Assembly (NCBI GenBank): GCA_031267575.1
Contig: JAIRYN010000016.1
Coordinates: 1-35,263, forward strand
Reading direction: 5' to 3'
DNA from: Synergistaceae bacterium
GTDB lineage: Bacteria; Synergistota; Synergistia; Synergistales; Aminobacteriaceae
DNA length: 35,263 nucleotides
Shown here piece after piece: positions 1 through 5,335 of the stretch. Every line of letters begins with the position of its first letter. The first letter of the stretch is position 1. Below the pieces are notes generated by a model. That model made no database searches. It worked only from the letters and a program-made list of their open reading frames with translations, and was not told the origin of the DNA. The translations under genes and the position numbers were made by a program.

Positions 1-22
1 GGTGGTTGATAGTAAAGTATTG

Positions 23-61
23 AGATAAAGTTAGGATAGTATGTCCAGGAGTGAAATAATT
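23..61. repeat. Left arm of an imperfect 39-bp inverted repeat
   Basis: This stretch matches the reverse complement of 1149-1187 in three blocks of identical order and almost identical spacing: AGATAAAGTT (23-32), GATAGTAT (35-42) and AAATAATT (54-61). The arms enclose about 1.1 kb that carries the tRNA-Glu fragment, a broken gene and the small Cys-rich gene. They could be the ends of a decayed mobile element. No transposase is recognisable between them. Confidence 0.45.
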
Positions 62-263
62 GTGTTGCATGATATTTTATGAATTAAATGAATTATCTGA
101 ATAGGAAAACTATTGTTTATGTACATTGAAAATTTGGCTTTGGGGGTCATATTTTAGAAAGAACCTAAAGCGGTTGGCGAGTATTTAATCGTACCAAAAA
201 CCGTACTATTAGGTTAAGGTATTTTCTAGTAATGCTAGGATTTGCAGTATTTTATATCATTAT

Positions 264-286
264 TTCGAATCCCGCTGGGACCGCCA
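264..286 (+). repeat. Direct repeat of the tRNA-Glu 3' end (attachment-site-like)
   Basis: These 23 bases are identical to the last 23 bases of the intact tRNA-Glu at 5260-5335 (T-loop half, 3' acceptor strand and CCA), in the same orientation. No tRNA 5' part precedes them. Such displaced 3' ends are the usual scar of integrases that insert into tRNA genes. In the usual arrangement the displaced fragment lies downstream of the intact gene, but here it lies upstream of the only visible copy. It may therefore be the far end of an element anchored at another tRNA-Glu left of the window, or a product of rearrangement. No integrase is visible. Confidence 0.75.
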
Positions 287-607
287 GTTGTTACAAATAC
301 TACAGTAGAAGAATATCTTCGTATAGACGTATGGGAAACCGAGTGGGATATCCTCGAACGTAAATTATACGCAGAATGGTTAAGTGTGCACAAAAATATC
401 CAGCGCGATAATGTGTCTCAAAACTCGCAGGGGTCGAATATGAATATATCAAAAATGAATTGCTGGAAGAAGTACAGGCTTGTCAAAAAGAACTACTCCT
501 TTATCGTGCTGAACTGGAATGTAAATTTGGGATCATTTTTCTGATGACCTTTAGTTTTCCTGCATTTTATTCCAGCGATGTCGATTGCTTATTTTATACC
601 TCTGTTT
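287..607 (+). pseudogene. Frameshifted remnant of an unrecognised gene
   Basis: Two reading frames together read like one protein. The first runs from just after the tRNA fragment and includes the residues TEWDILERKLYAEW. The second, one frame away, begins near 412 and includes GVEYEYIKNELLEEVQ, ending at a stop near 607. A single-base indel near 418-426 would join them. The upstream part of the first frame merely reads through the tRNA fragment, so the true start is missing. The composition is AT-rich, like the rest of the island. I do not recognise a family. It was probably inactivated when or after the island arrived. Confidence 0.4.
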
Positions 608-691
608 GAGAGAATCCCGAAAGATTACGCTAAAGCGATGAGCGATGAGAAAGCCACACGTAGGCTTGGACACCATCAGAGGATAACAACG

Positions 692-1102
692 ATGCCGAAA
701 GTAAAATGCGCTCATTCTCACCAAAAAACGGTTCAGAGAAAATGTCTCGTAGTTGGAGGGTATATCTGTTCTTTTTGTTGTGATTCCAATTTATTGAAAG
801 AAAATTTATTGAAAGAATTTGACTGTCCTACTGACTGTGATTACCTTGGAAACGAAAGTTTCTATCAAGAATCCCAGCAGGGAAAAGAATTCAGAAAGCT
901 ATTGGCAAGCGTTCCTTGTGGACAATTCGATGATATACTTCGGGATACCAGATACTTGGAGATTGCGTTTGAAATTGAAAAGAATGCAGCCGCTGCTTAT
1001 GCTAATGGTATCTATGCTTTGAACGATGAGGAAGTCAAAGAAGCGTATTACGAGACATACCATAAAAGATGTCGAATTCACTCAGGGATTGCAAGAAAAT
1101 AA
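692..1102 (+). CDS. Small Cys-rich putative zinc-binding protein
   Basis: This encodes 136 aa beginning MPKVKCAHSHQK. The ATG at 692 is preceded by AGAGG at a suitable distance. An upstream in-frame ATG at 578 lacks a Shine-Dalgarno and would run into the gene remnant. The first 55 residues hold a dense Cys/His cluster (C-x-H, RKC, C-x2-CC, then CPTDC followed by Y-L), which should bind zinc or an Fe-S cluster. The rest is predicted mainly helical and ends in a basic tail. Bases 788-817 are an exact 15-bp tandem duplication that inserts a second NLLKE in frame inside the Cys cluster. No named family is claimed. It is the only intact small gene of the island, and its role is unknown. Confidence 0.6.
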   Translation: MPKVKCAHSHQKTVQRKCLVVGGYICSFCCDSNLLKENLLKEFDCPTDCDYLGNESFYQESQQGKEFRKLLASVPCGQFDDILRDTRYLEIAFEIEKNAAAAYANGIYALNDEEVKEAYYETYHKRCRIHSGIARK

Positions 1103-1148
1103 ACCTTACAAGTTATCCTAAATTTTTATATTAATATAGTGGAGGTGT

Positions 1149-1187
1149 AATTATTTTCCATGTATCCAATACTATCAAACTTTATCT
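1149..1187. repeat. Right arm of the imperfect 39-bp inverted repeat
   Basis: This is the partner of 23-61. The reverse-complement blocks AATTATTT, ATACTATC and AACTTTATCT sit in mirrored order with gaps of 12 and 1 bases, against 11 and 2 in the left arm. It lies between the small Cys-rich gene and the first large exported-protein gene. The arm may be an element end or part of the promoter region of the following gene. Confidence 0.45.
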
Positions 1188-1274
1188 TAACTTGCCAAGA
1201 TTATTTTTTTGTAATCCCTTAGTAAAAACAATGCAGGCTTTAAATGCCTTCAAATGCCTTCAAAGGAGGTTTTC

Positions 1275-3035
1275 ATGTCTACTGAGAACAAGCAATGTAA
1301 ATTGGCTATATTACGGGTTTCAATAGTTTGTGTGTTTTTGCTTTTCATGTTTACGCCTTGCTCAGAAGCTTTGGACGTGAGAACAGCAAAAGAGCTTAAA
1401 GAAGCGTTTGAAGATAAAAAAATCACAGATGTTCGAATCATATCTTCTATTGAGGGTAATTTTATTATCCCCAAGTGGGTGTCATCTCTTATAGGTGCTT
1501 TTGACAAAGAAATAGTCATTACACCTGAAGATGTAAAAAAACCTGTTTTCGATGCAAATAGTGGACTATATGGGGCTAGCGATACTTTGAAAATTAGTAA
1601 TCTTACTATTGTATGTGATGGTGATAAAAGTAATATGAATGTGGGTATCAATCTCAATTCATTGACAAAACAAGTTTATGTAGAAAAAGTAATTTTTAAA
1701 GGGAAAGCCGACAGCAAAAAAAATATTTCTGGAATTTATCCAAGTAACAACGCAAGTTTACGAGATTGTACTTTTGAGAACCTAACGTGGGGGGTTTATG
1801 CTATCTCAGGTTCCAATTCTATATATGATATCAGTATTACAAGTTCTTCTTTCCAAAACGTCGCCCAAGCATTCGCGGCAAATGAAGAGAGGGGAAAGGT
1901 TAATATAGTCAATGGAAAAGGACAAAAACTTTACTCTTGGATATTTCTCCACAAGGCAGGAAGTATGACAGTCACTATAGATCAGGCATCAATTAATAAC
2001 ACGTCCAATGCTGGTTTTGCACATAGATATTTGGATAAACAAGGATATGACCGTCGTGGAGAAAAAACGGAAATATCTAAGTATATAGATGACTATGATC
2101 AAAAAAAAGATTCTCTGCGCAATGATCCATTTATTGACAATACTTACATTCAGAGTATTAAAAGACAAAATGACTATGATGCTGCGTTAGTTCAGTTGAA
2201 ACGCGAACTACAAAACGAATTAAGAGAGATTGATTTTAGCGATAGCGATGCTTTCGATATGCAACTTCATATCCGCCGTAGTATTACTCTTTATTATCTT
2301 TTGGCCGACTGTCTAAGCGATTTTGATTGGGAAGCAAGTGTTAAGCGTTTTATTTCCGATGAGACACTGCGAAAAGCAATTTTATATCAGTGTTTATGGA
2401 GTTATGATCAGTTGGCAATGCTAGAATTGAGTACTCCTAATATCTTTTGGGGGAATAGCGATAACATGCGCACTGTCTTTACAAAGTTCGATGTTTCTCT
2501 GGCAGACAGGATTTTTAGAGATAATCTTTATATCTTCCGCGACTGGCTGGAAGCTCTAGCTGGCACTGAAAAATTAATGGAGAAGTTGAAAACAGACGCA
2601 GAAGGTTATTTTGAAGACGTTGAATATATCAGAGACCTCAAAGTCATTCTACGCAAAATCTATGATCTGCAAATTGTTGCTTCTCGTCTTGTCCGTGTAG
2701 CGTTTTTCGATATACCGATGCAAACGGCCTTTACTATAAGTTATAGTAAAACGGTGGAATCCGTAAAAGATAACAAAGGTCTCTTTGGCAGCCTTTCTGA
2801 CAAAGGAAAGGATCGTATTATTCAAATTGCAAGAGAAATTGCTCCTTTTTATACCGTTTCACAACAATTGTGTATATTGAATTCCACCAATGATTTACGC
2901 ATGGAACTAATACGAGAATGGAAAACGGCGTTGAAAAAAGATAGTGACGAAGAAATGAAGACCTATCTTGCAACTGACGCAGACATTATGCGAGAAGCAG
3001 AACGTATTGAGAAATTTTACCATAGTTGGAGATGA
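1275..3035 (+). CDS. Exported beta-helix-like protein, unknown function
   Basis: This encodes 586 aa. The ATG at 1275 follows a strong AAAGGAGG (1262-1269); an in-frame ATG at 1254 lies before that site and is rejected. Residues 1-32 form a signal peptide with a hydrophobic core and an A-type cleavage site (SEA, then LD). Residues of about 35-235 contain repeated short beta strands with Asn/Ser turns (for example ISNLTIV, NASLRDCTFENL, IYDISITSSSF). This resembles a right-handed parallel beta-helix of the pectate-lyase type. The C-terminal 350 residues are highly charged and helical with no recognised motif. The gene ends 2 bases before the next exported-protein gene, so the two are surely one operon. 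The AT-rich codon use differs from the housekeeping genes to the right. No catalytic residues can be assigned. Confidence 0.8.
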   Translation: MSTENKQCKLAILRVSIVCVFLLFMFTPCSEALDVRTAKELKEAFEDKKITDVRIISSIEGNFIIPKWVSSLIGAFDKEIVITPEDVKKPVFDANSGLYGASDTLKISNLTIVCDGDKSNMNVGINLNSLTKQVYVEKVIFKGKADSKKNISGIYPSNNASLRDCTFENLTWGVYAISGSNSIYDISITSSSFQNVAQAFAANEERGKVNIVNGKGQKLYSWIFLHKAGSMTVTIDQASINNTSNAGFAHRYLDKQGYDRRGEKTEISKYIDDYDQKKDSLRNDPFIDNTYIQSIKRQNDYDAALVQLKRELQNELREIDFSDSDAFDMQLHIRRSITLYYLLADCLSDFDWEASVKRFISDETLRKAILYQCLWSYDQLAMLELSTPNIFWGNSDNMRTVFTKFDVSLADRIFRDNLYIFRDWLEALAGTEKLMEKLKTDAEGYFEDVEYIRDLKVILRKIYDLQIVASRLVRVAFFDIPMQTAFTISYSKTVESVKDNKGLFGSLSDKGKDRIIQIAREIAPFYTVSQQLCILNSTNDLRMELIREWKTALKKDSDEEMKTYLATDADIMREAERIEKFYHSWR

Positions 3036-3037
3036 AA

Positions 3038-4774
3038 ATGAAAAAGTTTAAAAATGATGTTTGGGGGATATTGCGAGTCTTTTTCGTTATTTTTTGTTGT
3101 CTAACTTGGGGATTTCCGGCTTATGGATTACCTGAACAAGGACATACAGCGCTAGCGAATAAATATATTTGGGGATTGACTACCGAAGCGAGTAAGAATA
3201 TCCATTCAGCTATTATTGATAAAGTGCCTTGGCGAAATAGTACTGGGACAATGAATCATCGAGAACTCTGGGGGCATTCCGATGATTGGTTTTATAAAGG
3301 GAAATTGCCGAAGGAAGCTGTTTTGAAAGATATTTGTAGAGTTATTGGTGAAGAGAATCCCCAATGGACGGTTCAAGAGGTTGAGAAATATTCTCTGAAA
3401 CGCTATCGTGAACTTGTTTCTCAATCTGGTCAAGAGCGTATAGCAGAAGAATTACAGAAACATTTTTCGTTCCTCTCCCGTAAAGAAGCGATGGCTGTAG
3501 CAGAACAGGCTCATGCTGCTCATATTGTGGGAGATGCGAAAACGGCAGAAGGGGCAAAACTGAATAATATTCACAGAGTCCAAGATACATTAAGGCATCC
3601 ACCTCTTGAAGCTATAAGTGCAGAAAACAAAATGAATCTTGATTTCACAATGCGTAATGTTGCAATGAACGGGAAAGATTTTTCTCCTGCTGTATTTATA
3701 GGAGGAGCACCCAATTTTGAACGTCTTAAAGTTGAAGGTTTTATGCGTGATCAGGGGCTGAAAATGTATAACCCCCCCAACAAAGAGAACATCGGCGTAG
3801 TTTTTGAGGGGCGTAATTATCTTTACAAAATGGATCACGGAGACATCAGAAAAGCTCTAACACAAGCGAATAATAGTGAATTAAGGATTATACTTCCAGA
3901 CGATGAGTATAATAAATTCATTTCAAATTCCCGTAATGCAGATATAGTAGATAGGGTTATTCCTGAGTCCATGGTAACAGGAAAATCTAACACAATAAAA
4001 AATAGCCAGTTAATTCTTCAAAACGAAGTACAAGCCAAAGCAGATGAAATAGCAGCATCTCAAAAAGATTTTATTGCTAATGTTCGTAAAAGCATAATAA
4101 GTAAAGCTGCTCCCTATATGCTGGGTGGAGCGATAATGGCTATCTCTGGAAATTGGGATGTGCTTAATGCGGCTTATCAAGGTGAAGAAGAATGGGAGAA
4201 AGCTCTTAAACGTACAGCAACTGATTTTGCAGGATATACCGTTACCCCGATGATGATTGATGGCGTGTTAGCCAAAGCAGGAAATAACGTAGCGGTTATG
4301 GTACCTCTGAAAAATGCCGGTTTAGGTTATACAATAGGCTATTTTGCTTGGGGAAGTGGGAAAGAATACTTCACCTTCCAAACTGGAGATATTACCTATG
4401 AAGAGATGCTGGAACGCCTCGAAAATCGTGGGAAGGGAGCCGTAGCCCAGGGAGCTATGATTCCCGCCAATATGCTCGTCTTAAAAATTTTCGGTGGAGG
4501 AGCAGCTTGGGTTGTTCCGGTTGTCATTATTAGTGGAGGATATGTTTGGCAAAGAGGGACAAAGTGGTACCAGAATAAAATATGGGAACAGACGGTTTAC
4601 ATGGATGATGTACTTGCTATTTTAGGGCCAGATTTAGTGGAAGACTTCACATTGCTTACTCCAGAAAGAAGAGATTCATTGGCTGAACCCGAACGAAGAT
4701 TTTCCTTTGCTGAACCTGAACGAAGAGATTCTTTGGCAGAGCCAGAACGTCGATCTAATTTCCTTGATCCATGA
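3038..4774 (+). CDS. Exported protein with HxxHxxxD motif and C-terminal PERR repeats
   Basis: This encodes 578 aa. I chose the ATG at 3038 because GGAG (3028-3031) lies 6 bases upstream; the TTG at 3026 and the ATG at 3032 overlap that site. Residues 1-30 are a signal peptide. The N-terminal domain has H36 and, at 159-166, an H-A-A-H-I-V-G-D string. This is loosely like metal ligands of the S1/P1 nuclease and phospholipase C superfamily, but it is too weak to name an enzyme. Two hydrophobic, glycine-rich segments (around residues 350-370 and 485-505) could cross or insert into a membrane. The last 40 residues are four 9-aa repeats of PERRDSLAE type. It is co-transcribed with the beta-helix protein, so the products probably act together at the cell surface or outside. 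Function unknown. Confidence 0.8.
   Translation: MKKFKNDVWGILRVFFVIFCCLTWGFPAYGLPEQGHTALANKYIWGLTTEASKNIHSAIIDKVPWRNSTGTMNHRELWGHSDDWFYKGKLPKEAVLKDICRVIGEENPQWTVQEVEKYSLKRYRELVSQSGQERIAEELQKHFSFLSRKEAMAVAEQAHAAHIVGDAKTAEGAKLNNIHRVQDTLRHPPLEAISAENKMNLDFTMRNVAMNGKDFSPAVFIGGAPNFERLKVEGFMRDQGLKMYNPPNKENIGVVFEGRNYLYKMDHGDIRKALTQANNSELRIILPDDEYNKFISNSRNADIVDRVIPESMVTGKSNTIKNSQLILQNEVQAKADEIAASQKDFIANVRKSIISKAAPYMLGGAIMAISGNWDVLNAAYQGEEEWEKALKRTATDFAGYTVTPMMIDGVLAKAGNNVAVMVPLKNAGLGYTIGYFAWGSGKEYFTFQTGDITYEEMLERLENRGKGAVAQGAMIPANMLVLKIFGGGAAWVVPVVIISGGYVWQRGTKWYQNKIWEQTVYMDDVLAILGPDLVEDFTLLTPERRDSLAEPERRFSFAEPERRDSLAEPERRSNFLDP
4661..4768 (+). repeat. Four 27-bp coding repeats (PERRDSLAE type)
   Basis: The units are 4661-4687, 4688-4714, 4715-4741 and 4742-4768. 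They encode PERRDSLAE, PERRFSFAE, PERRDSLAE and PERRSNFLD. They form the charged C-terminal tail of the second exported protein. The unit length is a multiple of three, so copy number can change without loss of frame. Confidence 0.85.
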
Positions 4775-4805
4775 GATTTATCCATGAGATTTATCCATGA
4801 AATTT
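4771..4805 (+). repeat. 13-bp tandem repeat over the stop codon
   Basis: ATGAGATTTATCC occurs exactly twice (4771-4783, 4784-4796), followed by a partial third copy (4797-4805). The first copy contains the stop codon of the exported-protein gene. Confidence 0.85.
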
Positions 4806-4836
4806 TAATATAACATCAACTATCACTTTGAATCCG

Positions 4837-4876
4837 AGGCCGCTTATCCTTTCCCAATCAGGATAACGGCCTTTTT
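4837..4876 (+). terminator. Rho-independent terminator of the exported-protein operon
   Basis: GGCCG and TTATCC on the left pair with GGATAA and CGGCC on the right, with one bulged C. A run of five T follows at 4872-4876. It sits about 60 bases after the operon's last stop codon. Confidence 0.85.
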
Positions 4877-5178
4877 GTATGGTCTGCTATAATCTTCTCG
4901 TAGGTGGAGATGAAAATCTCCGAGGAAGGAATGCCGATGGTCTAATGTGGTTTTATTGACAAAAGAGATTAATGTAATAAAGAGATTAATGTAATATGGA
5001 TTCCTGAAGAATATTTGGATACGATTCATTCAGGTTTAAATACGATTTATTCAGGTTTAAAAATGATGAATTGATACATGAAACTTGAAAATTGATGGAT
5101 CATGAGAGACTTTTCGACTCCGTAGTTTCTGGATATGGATTATTAAAATCGGTGAGTTGAGTAAGAGATTTATTCTAT
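4877..5178. other. Gene-free right end of the island with short tandem duplications
   Basis: I see no gene here. The stretch is AT-rich and holds two near-perfect duplications: a 17-bp unit repeated at 4962-4978 and 4979-4995, and a 21-bp unit at 5020-5040 and 5041-5061 with one mismatch. It separates the terminator from the damaged tRNA-Lys. Confidence 0.7.
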
Positions 5179-5254
5179 GAGTCTAGCTTTCAAAAAGACG
5201 AACCGGTGACTTTTAATCCGGGTGTCGAGGGTTCAAGTCCCTCACGGCTCACCA
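5179..5254 (+). pseudogene. tRNA-Lys(TTT) remnant with degenerate 5' half
   Basis: The 3' half is clearly a tRNA: loop CTTTTAA with anticodon TTT, the right half of an anticodon stem (TCCGG), a perfect T arm (GAGGG/CCCTC), 3' acceptor strand ACGGCTC, discriminator A and CCA. The 5' half does not fit. The acceptor partner should be GAGCCGT but reads GAGTCTA, no D arm forms, and two extra bases (TG) interrupt the left anticodon stem. The distance from the GAG to CCA is still 76 bases. It is either a decayed gene or a displaced 3' end left by integration at another tRNA-Lys. The tRNA-Glu begins 5 bases downstream. Confidence 0.75.
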
Positions 5255-5259
5255 AGCGC

Positions 5260-5335
5260 GGTCCCATCGTCTAGGGGCCTAAGACACAGCCCTTTCAAGG
5301 CTGTGGCGTGGGTTCGAATCCCGCTGGGACCGCCA
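5260..5335 (+). tRNA. tRNA-Glu(TTC)
   Basis: This is a complete 76-base cloverleaf with encoded CCA. The acceptor pairs GGTCCCA with TGGGACC. The anticodon stem CAGCC/GGCTG encloses CTTTCAA, giving anticodon TTC. A normal T arm with GTTCGAATC follows. Its last 23 bases recur at 264-286. It forms the right border of the AT-rich region and lies directly behind the tRNA-Lys remnant, so the pair was probably once a tRNA-Lys/tRNA-Glu transcription unit. Confidence 0.97.

Follow-up and report, generated by a model that had tools for sequence, protein, structure and literature searches.

This report concerns a pair of adjacent genes near the start of a 35,263-nucleotide contig from a Synergistaceae bacterium (JAIRYN010000016.1, assembly GCA_031267575.1; the whole of this stretch is called the window below). 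Gene 1 and gene 2 encode the proteins P1 and P2, respectively. Half of P1 is modelled with a well-known fold; the rest of P1 and all of P2 make up families without a described relative, found so far in Synergistaceae only. In a related genus, the pair is inherited as a cassette inserted where an M13-type peptidase gene meets a cytidylate-kinase-like gene (Cmk). On our best reading, to which we give somewhat less than an even chance, P1 and P2 are translated together and form a complex in the envelope, with P2 as the anchor and P1 as the part that binds a glycan or a surface.

Searches of Pfam, NCBIfam, PHROGs, PADLOC families and PDB sequences gave no match above chance for P1 or P2, and phage, plasmid and viral collections gave none. 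In a wider contig collection, alignment queries found only metagenome-assembled genomes (MAGs) of Synergistaceae, and single-protein queries found no match. Weak matches in Pfam, NCBIfam and PHROGs (E >0.03), as well as a match to FliD_C (E 0.004) on one fragment only, were taken as chance. Literature searches retrieved no paper describing such a pair. An earlier reading made from the letters of the window (the sequence-only reading) had placed the two proteins in no recognised family, and the profile searches, which gave no housekeeping-family match, agree with it.

The survey for relatives covered 188 genomes of the phylum Synergistota, including 43 of the related genus. By profile search, P2 was found only in the window genome and in G079, G081, G087, G090 and G100, which all belong to that genus. 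P1 was found in the same genomes and also in G109, where the beginning of a short P2 comes after it at the contig edge, and in G101, where it is cut off after the beta-helix. Homologues were missed among 61 close relatives, and the search of the whole phylum was required. The pair is accessory in its spread: besides the window genome, it is present in six other species of the related genus and absent from most members. In all seven genomes showing both genes, P2 directly follows P1; the proposal of the sequence-only reading that the two proteins belong together is thereby strengthened. In G081 the pair has decayed by frameshifts and stops. The ratio of nonsynonymous to synonymous substitution (dN/dS) was about 0.13-0.27 in pairs with measurable dS, which indicates purifying selection on the genes. 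The five relatives with a known source, all of them MAGs of Synergistaceae, came from the abomasum or reticulum of goats or from roe deer rumen.

The pair has the surroundings of a cassette. G100 and G087 carry it with the M13-type peptidase gene on one side and Cmk on the other. At least eight sister species have the M13 gene and Cmk as immediate neighbours, within about 20-200 bases of each other, which represents the empty site. The pair adjoins the same kinase gene in G081 and the M13 gene in G079 and G090. It lies at other locations in G109 and the window; three different loci are occupied in all. In G105, a different exported protein is encoded at the M13-Cmk spot; its gene (L093, G105:C73, 660-1508, minus strand) is divergent from the kinase gene and by eye reads as phosphatase-like, with a TGISPGRLYRS stretch. 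One explanation of the pair is that P1 and P2 are lineage-specific envelope orphans, such as a periplasmic scaffold or a nutrient-capture device, and that their pairing reflects mere joint regulation. The restriction, as far as seen, to one bacterial family and the stable synteny with the M13-type peptidase gene in G079, G087, G090 and G100 would suit this explanation. We judge it quite unlikely, as absence from most of the 43 genomes and occupation of three loci mark the pair as accessory, not core.

Two neighbourhoods contain genes of other kinds. In G081 (L018, 11144-19198, minus strand), the decayed pair adjoins what look like effector genes of a type III-B (Cmr) CRISPR system. In G101 (L042, G101:C280, 934-2646, minus strand), the gene directly upstream of the truncated P1 encodes an exported protein of 571 amino acid residues (P0003) with a PD-(D/E)xK-like motif (GFDG...AESKFG). 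Its glycine-rich region matches the PADLOC candidate family PDC-M09A (1.5e-16), and such a region recurs in 14 of the 188 genomes. A relationship between this region and the P2 core received no support (hhalign probability 0.6%). The CRISPR-like genes, the PDC-M09A match and the cassette behaviour with an empty site could all be taken to mean that the pair is an exported anti-phage module of the envelope that, for example, blocks injection. Just these two neighbourhoods underlie the defence reading. PADLOC gave no match for P1 or P2 (none of its component models matched these or two P2 homologues), the common M13-Cmk site is not a defence island, and the window neighbourhood contains no recognised defence gene; we thus regard an anti-phage function as very unlikely.

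The arrangement of the two genes is given in Table 1. P1 starts at ATG 1275, with AGGAGG shortly upstream, and its stop codon (3033-3035) is overlapped by the P2 start codon at 3032. An alternative P2 start, ATG 3038, has better spacing from GGAG and may be the true one. At both N-termini, a strong hydrophobic segment (hydropathy peaks 2.35 and 1.98) precedes a plausible signal-peptidase site, and both proteins are predicted to be exported. A promoter scan of the region was no better than for shuffled sequence. As a strong stem followed by five T residues, beginning 61 nucleotides 3' of P2, closes the region, the genes likely form a bicistronic operon. The co-transcription and the signal peptides noticed by the sequence-only reading are consistent with these features.

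An AlphaFold2 model of P1 based on a five-sequence alignment shows residues 32-240 as a right-handed beta-helix, in which the predicted local distance difference test (pLDDT) score is mostly 70-95. In comparisons with VIA-align 2, about 215 residues of the model aligned at Z 17-20 with pectate lyases, capsule depolymerases, tailspikes and the adhesin PfbA, and P1 homologues match PF13229 with a score under its cut-off. On this model, we confidently assign the region to the pectate-lyase-type right-handed beta-helices, in line with the beta-helix-like front half proposed before. PL1 and PL3 pectate lyases, phage tailspikes and PfbA share this fold at 8-17% identity to P1; P1 differs from them in its additional helical domain of 330 residues and its constant neighbour gene. 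The W-x-D-H and R-x-P-x-x-R motifs of PL1 lyases were found in none of six P1 sequences, of which two are partial. The helical domain (about residues 258-586) had no PDB sequence match. It is conserved nearly as well as the beta-helix (37-39% versus 40-43% identity to the window P1), with a mean column identity of 61% across five sequences and an invariant W-R at the C-terminus.

The constant part of P2 comprises the core and the tail (residues 354-580). The sequence-only reading had noted hydrophobic segments, which are present and strongest in a hairpin-like stretch of about 38 residues (469-507), with a hydropathy peak of 1.5-2.15 in every homologue. It had also noted the repeat tail: four nine-residue PExRxSLAx units are present in the window P2 and three in complete homologues. 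As the DNA of the four units is just 80% identical, they are probably kept by selection, and not a product of recent slippage. Within the phylum, the tail repeat is specific to P2; the weak extra matches that might have made it a signal common to other exported proteins had no such tail in an open frame.

The N-terminal domain of P2, by comparison, is confined to the window, G079 and G081. The P2 proteins of G087, G090, G100 and G109 are short forms that consist of signal peptide, core and tail; the short P2 has 251 residues, signal peptide included. The short forms make up a single clade (support 100/99), which fits a single loss of the N-terminal domain and identifies the core, not this domain, as the constant part. 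The HxxHxxxD motif pointed out by the sequence-only reading exists in the window P2 (H161, H164 and D168), and its first histidine is not conserved, being Trp in G079, the sole other intact long homologue. Both intact long forms have H38, H76, H82, D84, H164 and D168 in common, as well as the HRxxWGHSDxW and HIxGD motifs, and a metal site in the long forms is possible. The early His, the H..HSD cluster and HIxGD follow the order of the metal sites in S1/P1 nuclease and zinc-dependent phospholipase C, and we treat this as a lead only. P2 differs from these enzymes in lacking the final His of HxxxD-x5-H and, in the short forms, the whole domain; the isolated N-terminal domain gave no profile match to either enzyme in Pfam up to E 10. 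A metal site cannot be the essence of the system, because the domain is dispensable and the first His is not conserved. The metal-dependent partner suggested earlier is therefore not supported as the defining activity, and no zinc-enzyme family matched.

The hairpin also brings in the main rival to an envelope complex, a two-component antagonism toxin in which P1 would bind and P2 would insert into a membrane, with a second, possibly enzymatic, domain added in long P2s. A similar hydrophobic hairpin lies in the otherwise mixed domain of colicin-like pore formers, as judged by hydropathy only; these differ in that P2 has its own signal peptide and no sequence or family match to them. The hairpin in every P2, the constant core to which an extra domain may be added, the patchy, cassette-like distribution and the position of the truncated G101 P1 directly behind the protein with the PD-(D/E)xK-like motif agree with a toxin. 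No immunity-like gene accompanies the pair, however, and in L017, L019, L020, L021 and the window P2 is not followed by any conserved small partner gene. In polymorphic toxins, a variable C-terminal toxin is combined with an immunity gene, whereas the C-terminus of P2 is the conserved part. There is also no toxin family match, and the short-form P2 is without any candidate enzyme. On balance, we consider a toxin rather unlikely. A more elaborate form of the idea would make the pair a new kind of weapon or delivery device with which rumen bacteria perforate membranes: P1 would supply a beta-helix binding arm and P2 a hairpin core, a docking tail of nine-residue repeats and a fusable N-terminal payload. 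This form appears unlikely.

Two-partner secretion (TpsA and TpsB) also resembles the P1-P2 pair in having two adjacent exported genes, one for a beta-helix protein. Three P1 proteins gave no Pfam match to the N-terminal haemagglutination-activity (TPS) domain characteristic of the exoprotein in this system, although a diverged domain could escape detection. P2 has no Pfam match to a partner with POTRA domains and a 16-strand outer-membrane barrel, and its short form is too small for one.

For the envelope complex, we counted the Z of about 20 to carbohydrate-active beta-helices, the lack of PL1 motifs, the adjacency of the genes, the conserved hairpin and tail, the purifying selection, the empty site, the goat or deer stomachs as source of the named carriers, and the single clade of short P2s. 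P2 would be held in the membrane through its hairpin, and the helical domain of P1 would dock on P2, perhaps on the core or the PExRxSLAx tail. The beta-helix would then face outward and bind a glycan or other rumen surface ligand without the chemistry of PL1 pectate lyases, and the N-terminal domain of long P2s would be an accessory module lost by one clade. Several points weigh against this proposal. From the beta-helix fold, no ligand can be deduced with certainty; an adhesin, glycan-binding or effector role is a guess. The helical half of P1 was modelled at pLDDT below 60 and P2 as a whole poorly (mean pLDDT 48.9), and Foldseek and VIA comparisons of the P2 model were not interpretable at this low confidence. 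The moderate hydrophobicity of P2 fits a resident membrane protein and a later inserter alike.

Table 1. Positions of the gene pair, its domains and the associated elements in the window
Feature	Position	Strand	Remarks
Gene 1 (P1)	1275..3035	+	586 residues; signal peptide, then a right-handed beta-helix, then an orphan helical domain with W-R at its end
P1 beta-helix, residues 32-240	1368..1994	+	AlphaFold2 and VIA (Z 17-20)
P1 helical domain, residues 258-586	2046..3032	+	Helical by AlphaFold2, low confidence; no known relative
Gene 2 (P2)	3032..4774	+	580 residues; ATGA overlap with gene 1
P2 optional N-terminal region, residues 33-353	3128..4090	+	Long form only
P2 conserved membrane-prone core, residues 354-543	4091..4660	+	
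P2 strongest hydrophobic hairpin, residues 469-507	4436..4552	+	Hydropathy
P2 tail, four copies of the 9-residue repeat PERRxSxAE	4661..4771	+	
Likely intrinsic terminator of the operon	4836..4878	+	Stem -19.1 kcal/mol, z -3.7, then TTTTT
tRNA-Glu 3' end, isolated att-like copy	264..286	+	23 bp, perfect repeat
Identical 23 bp within the intact tRNA-Glu gene (5260-5335)	5313..5335	+	

In the window, the pair lies in a low-GC block (positions 1-5180, GC content 33-40%, versus 55-58% in the housekeeping genes past 7 kb; mfd, mutS, mutL, feoB, pnp and recG lie outside the block). The block adjoins tRNA genes. A 23-bp sequence, the 3' end of tRNA-Glu, is repeated here, and the two copies in Table 1 are the only ones in the entire genome. 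The block looks like an integration beside tRNA genes, and the island of the sequence-only reading is recognisable in it. The isolated copy sits 5' of the intact tRNA-Glu gene; elements integrated at a tRNA do not usually show this order, and a simpler one can be imagined. The stretch between the two repeats showed no integrase. As the contig starts at base 1, the sequence to the left of the block is not covered. By eye, a tRNA-Lys (TTT) gene is recognisable at about 5205-5254 from its 3' half with CCA; a normal 5' half is missing, and the sequence is possibly an integration scar. Neither ARAGORN nor Rfam called a tRNA there; in Rfam, tRNA-Glu alone was above the cut-off. A small cysteine-rich open reading frame (578-1102; CxxCC...CPxDCxYL pattern), with no Pfam family, also lies inside the block.

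The analysis defines two protein families that match no library searched, one of them clearly modular, in a cassette with a known empty site. The finding is worth following, though small in reach. The sister species with and without the cassette offer a clean natural comparison for the role of envelope gene pairs in the poorly cultured rumen Synergistaceae.
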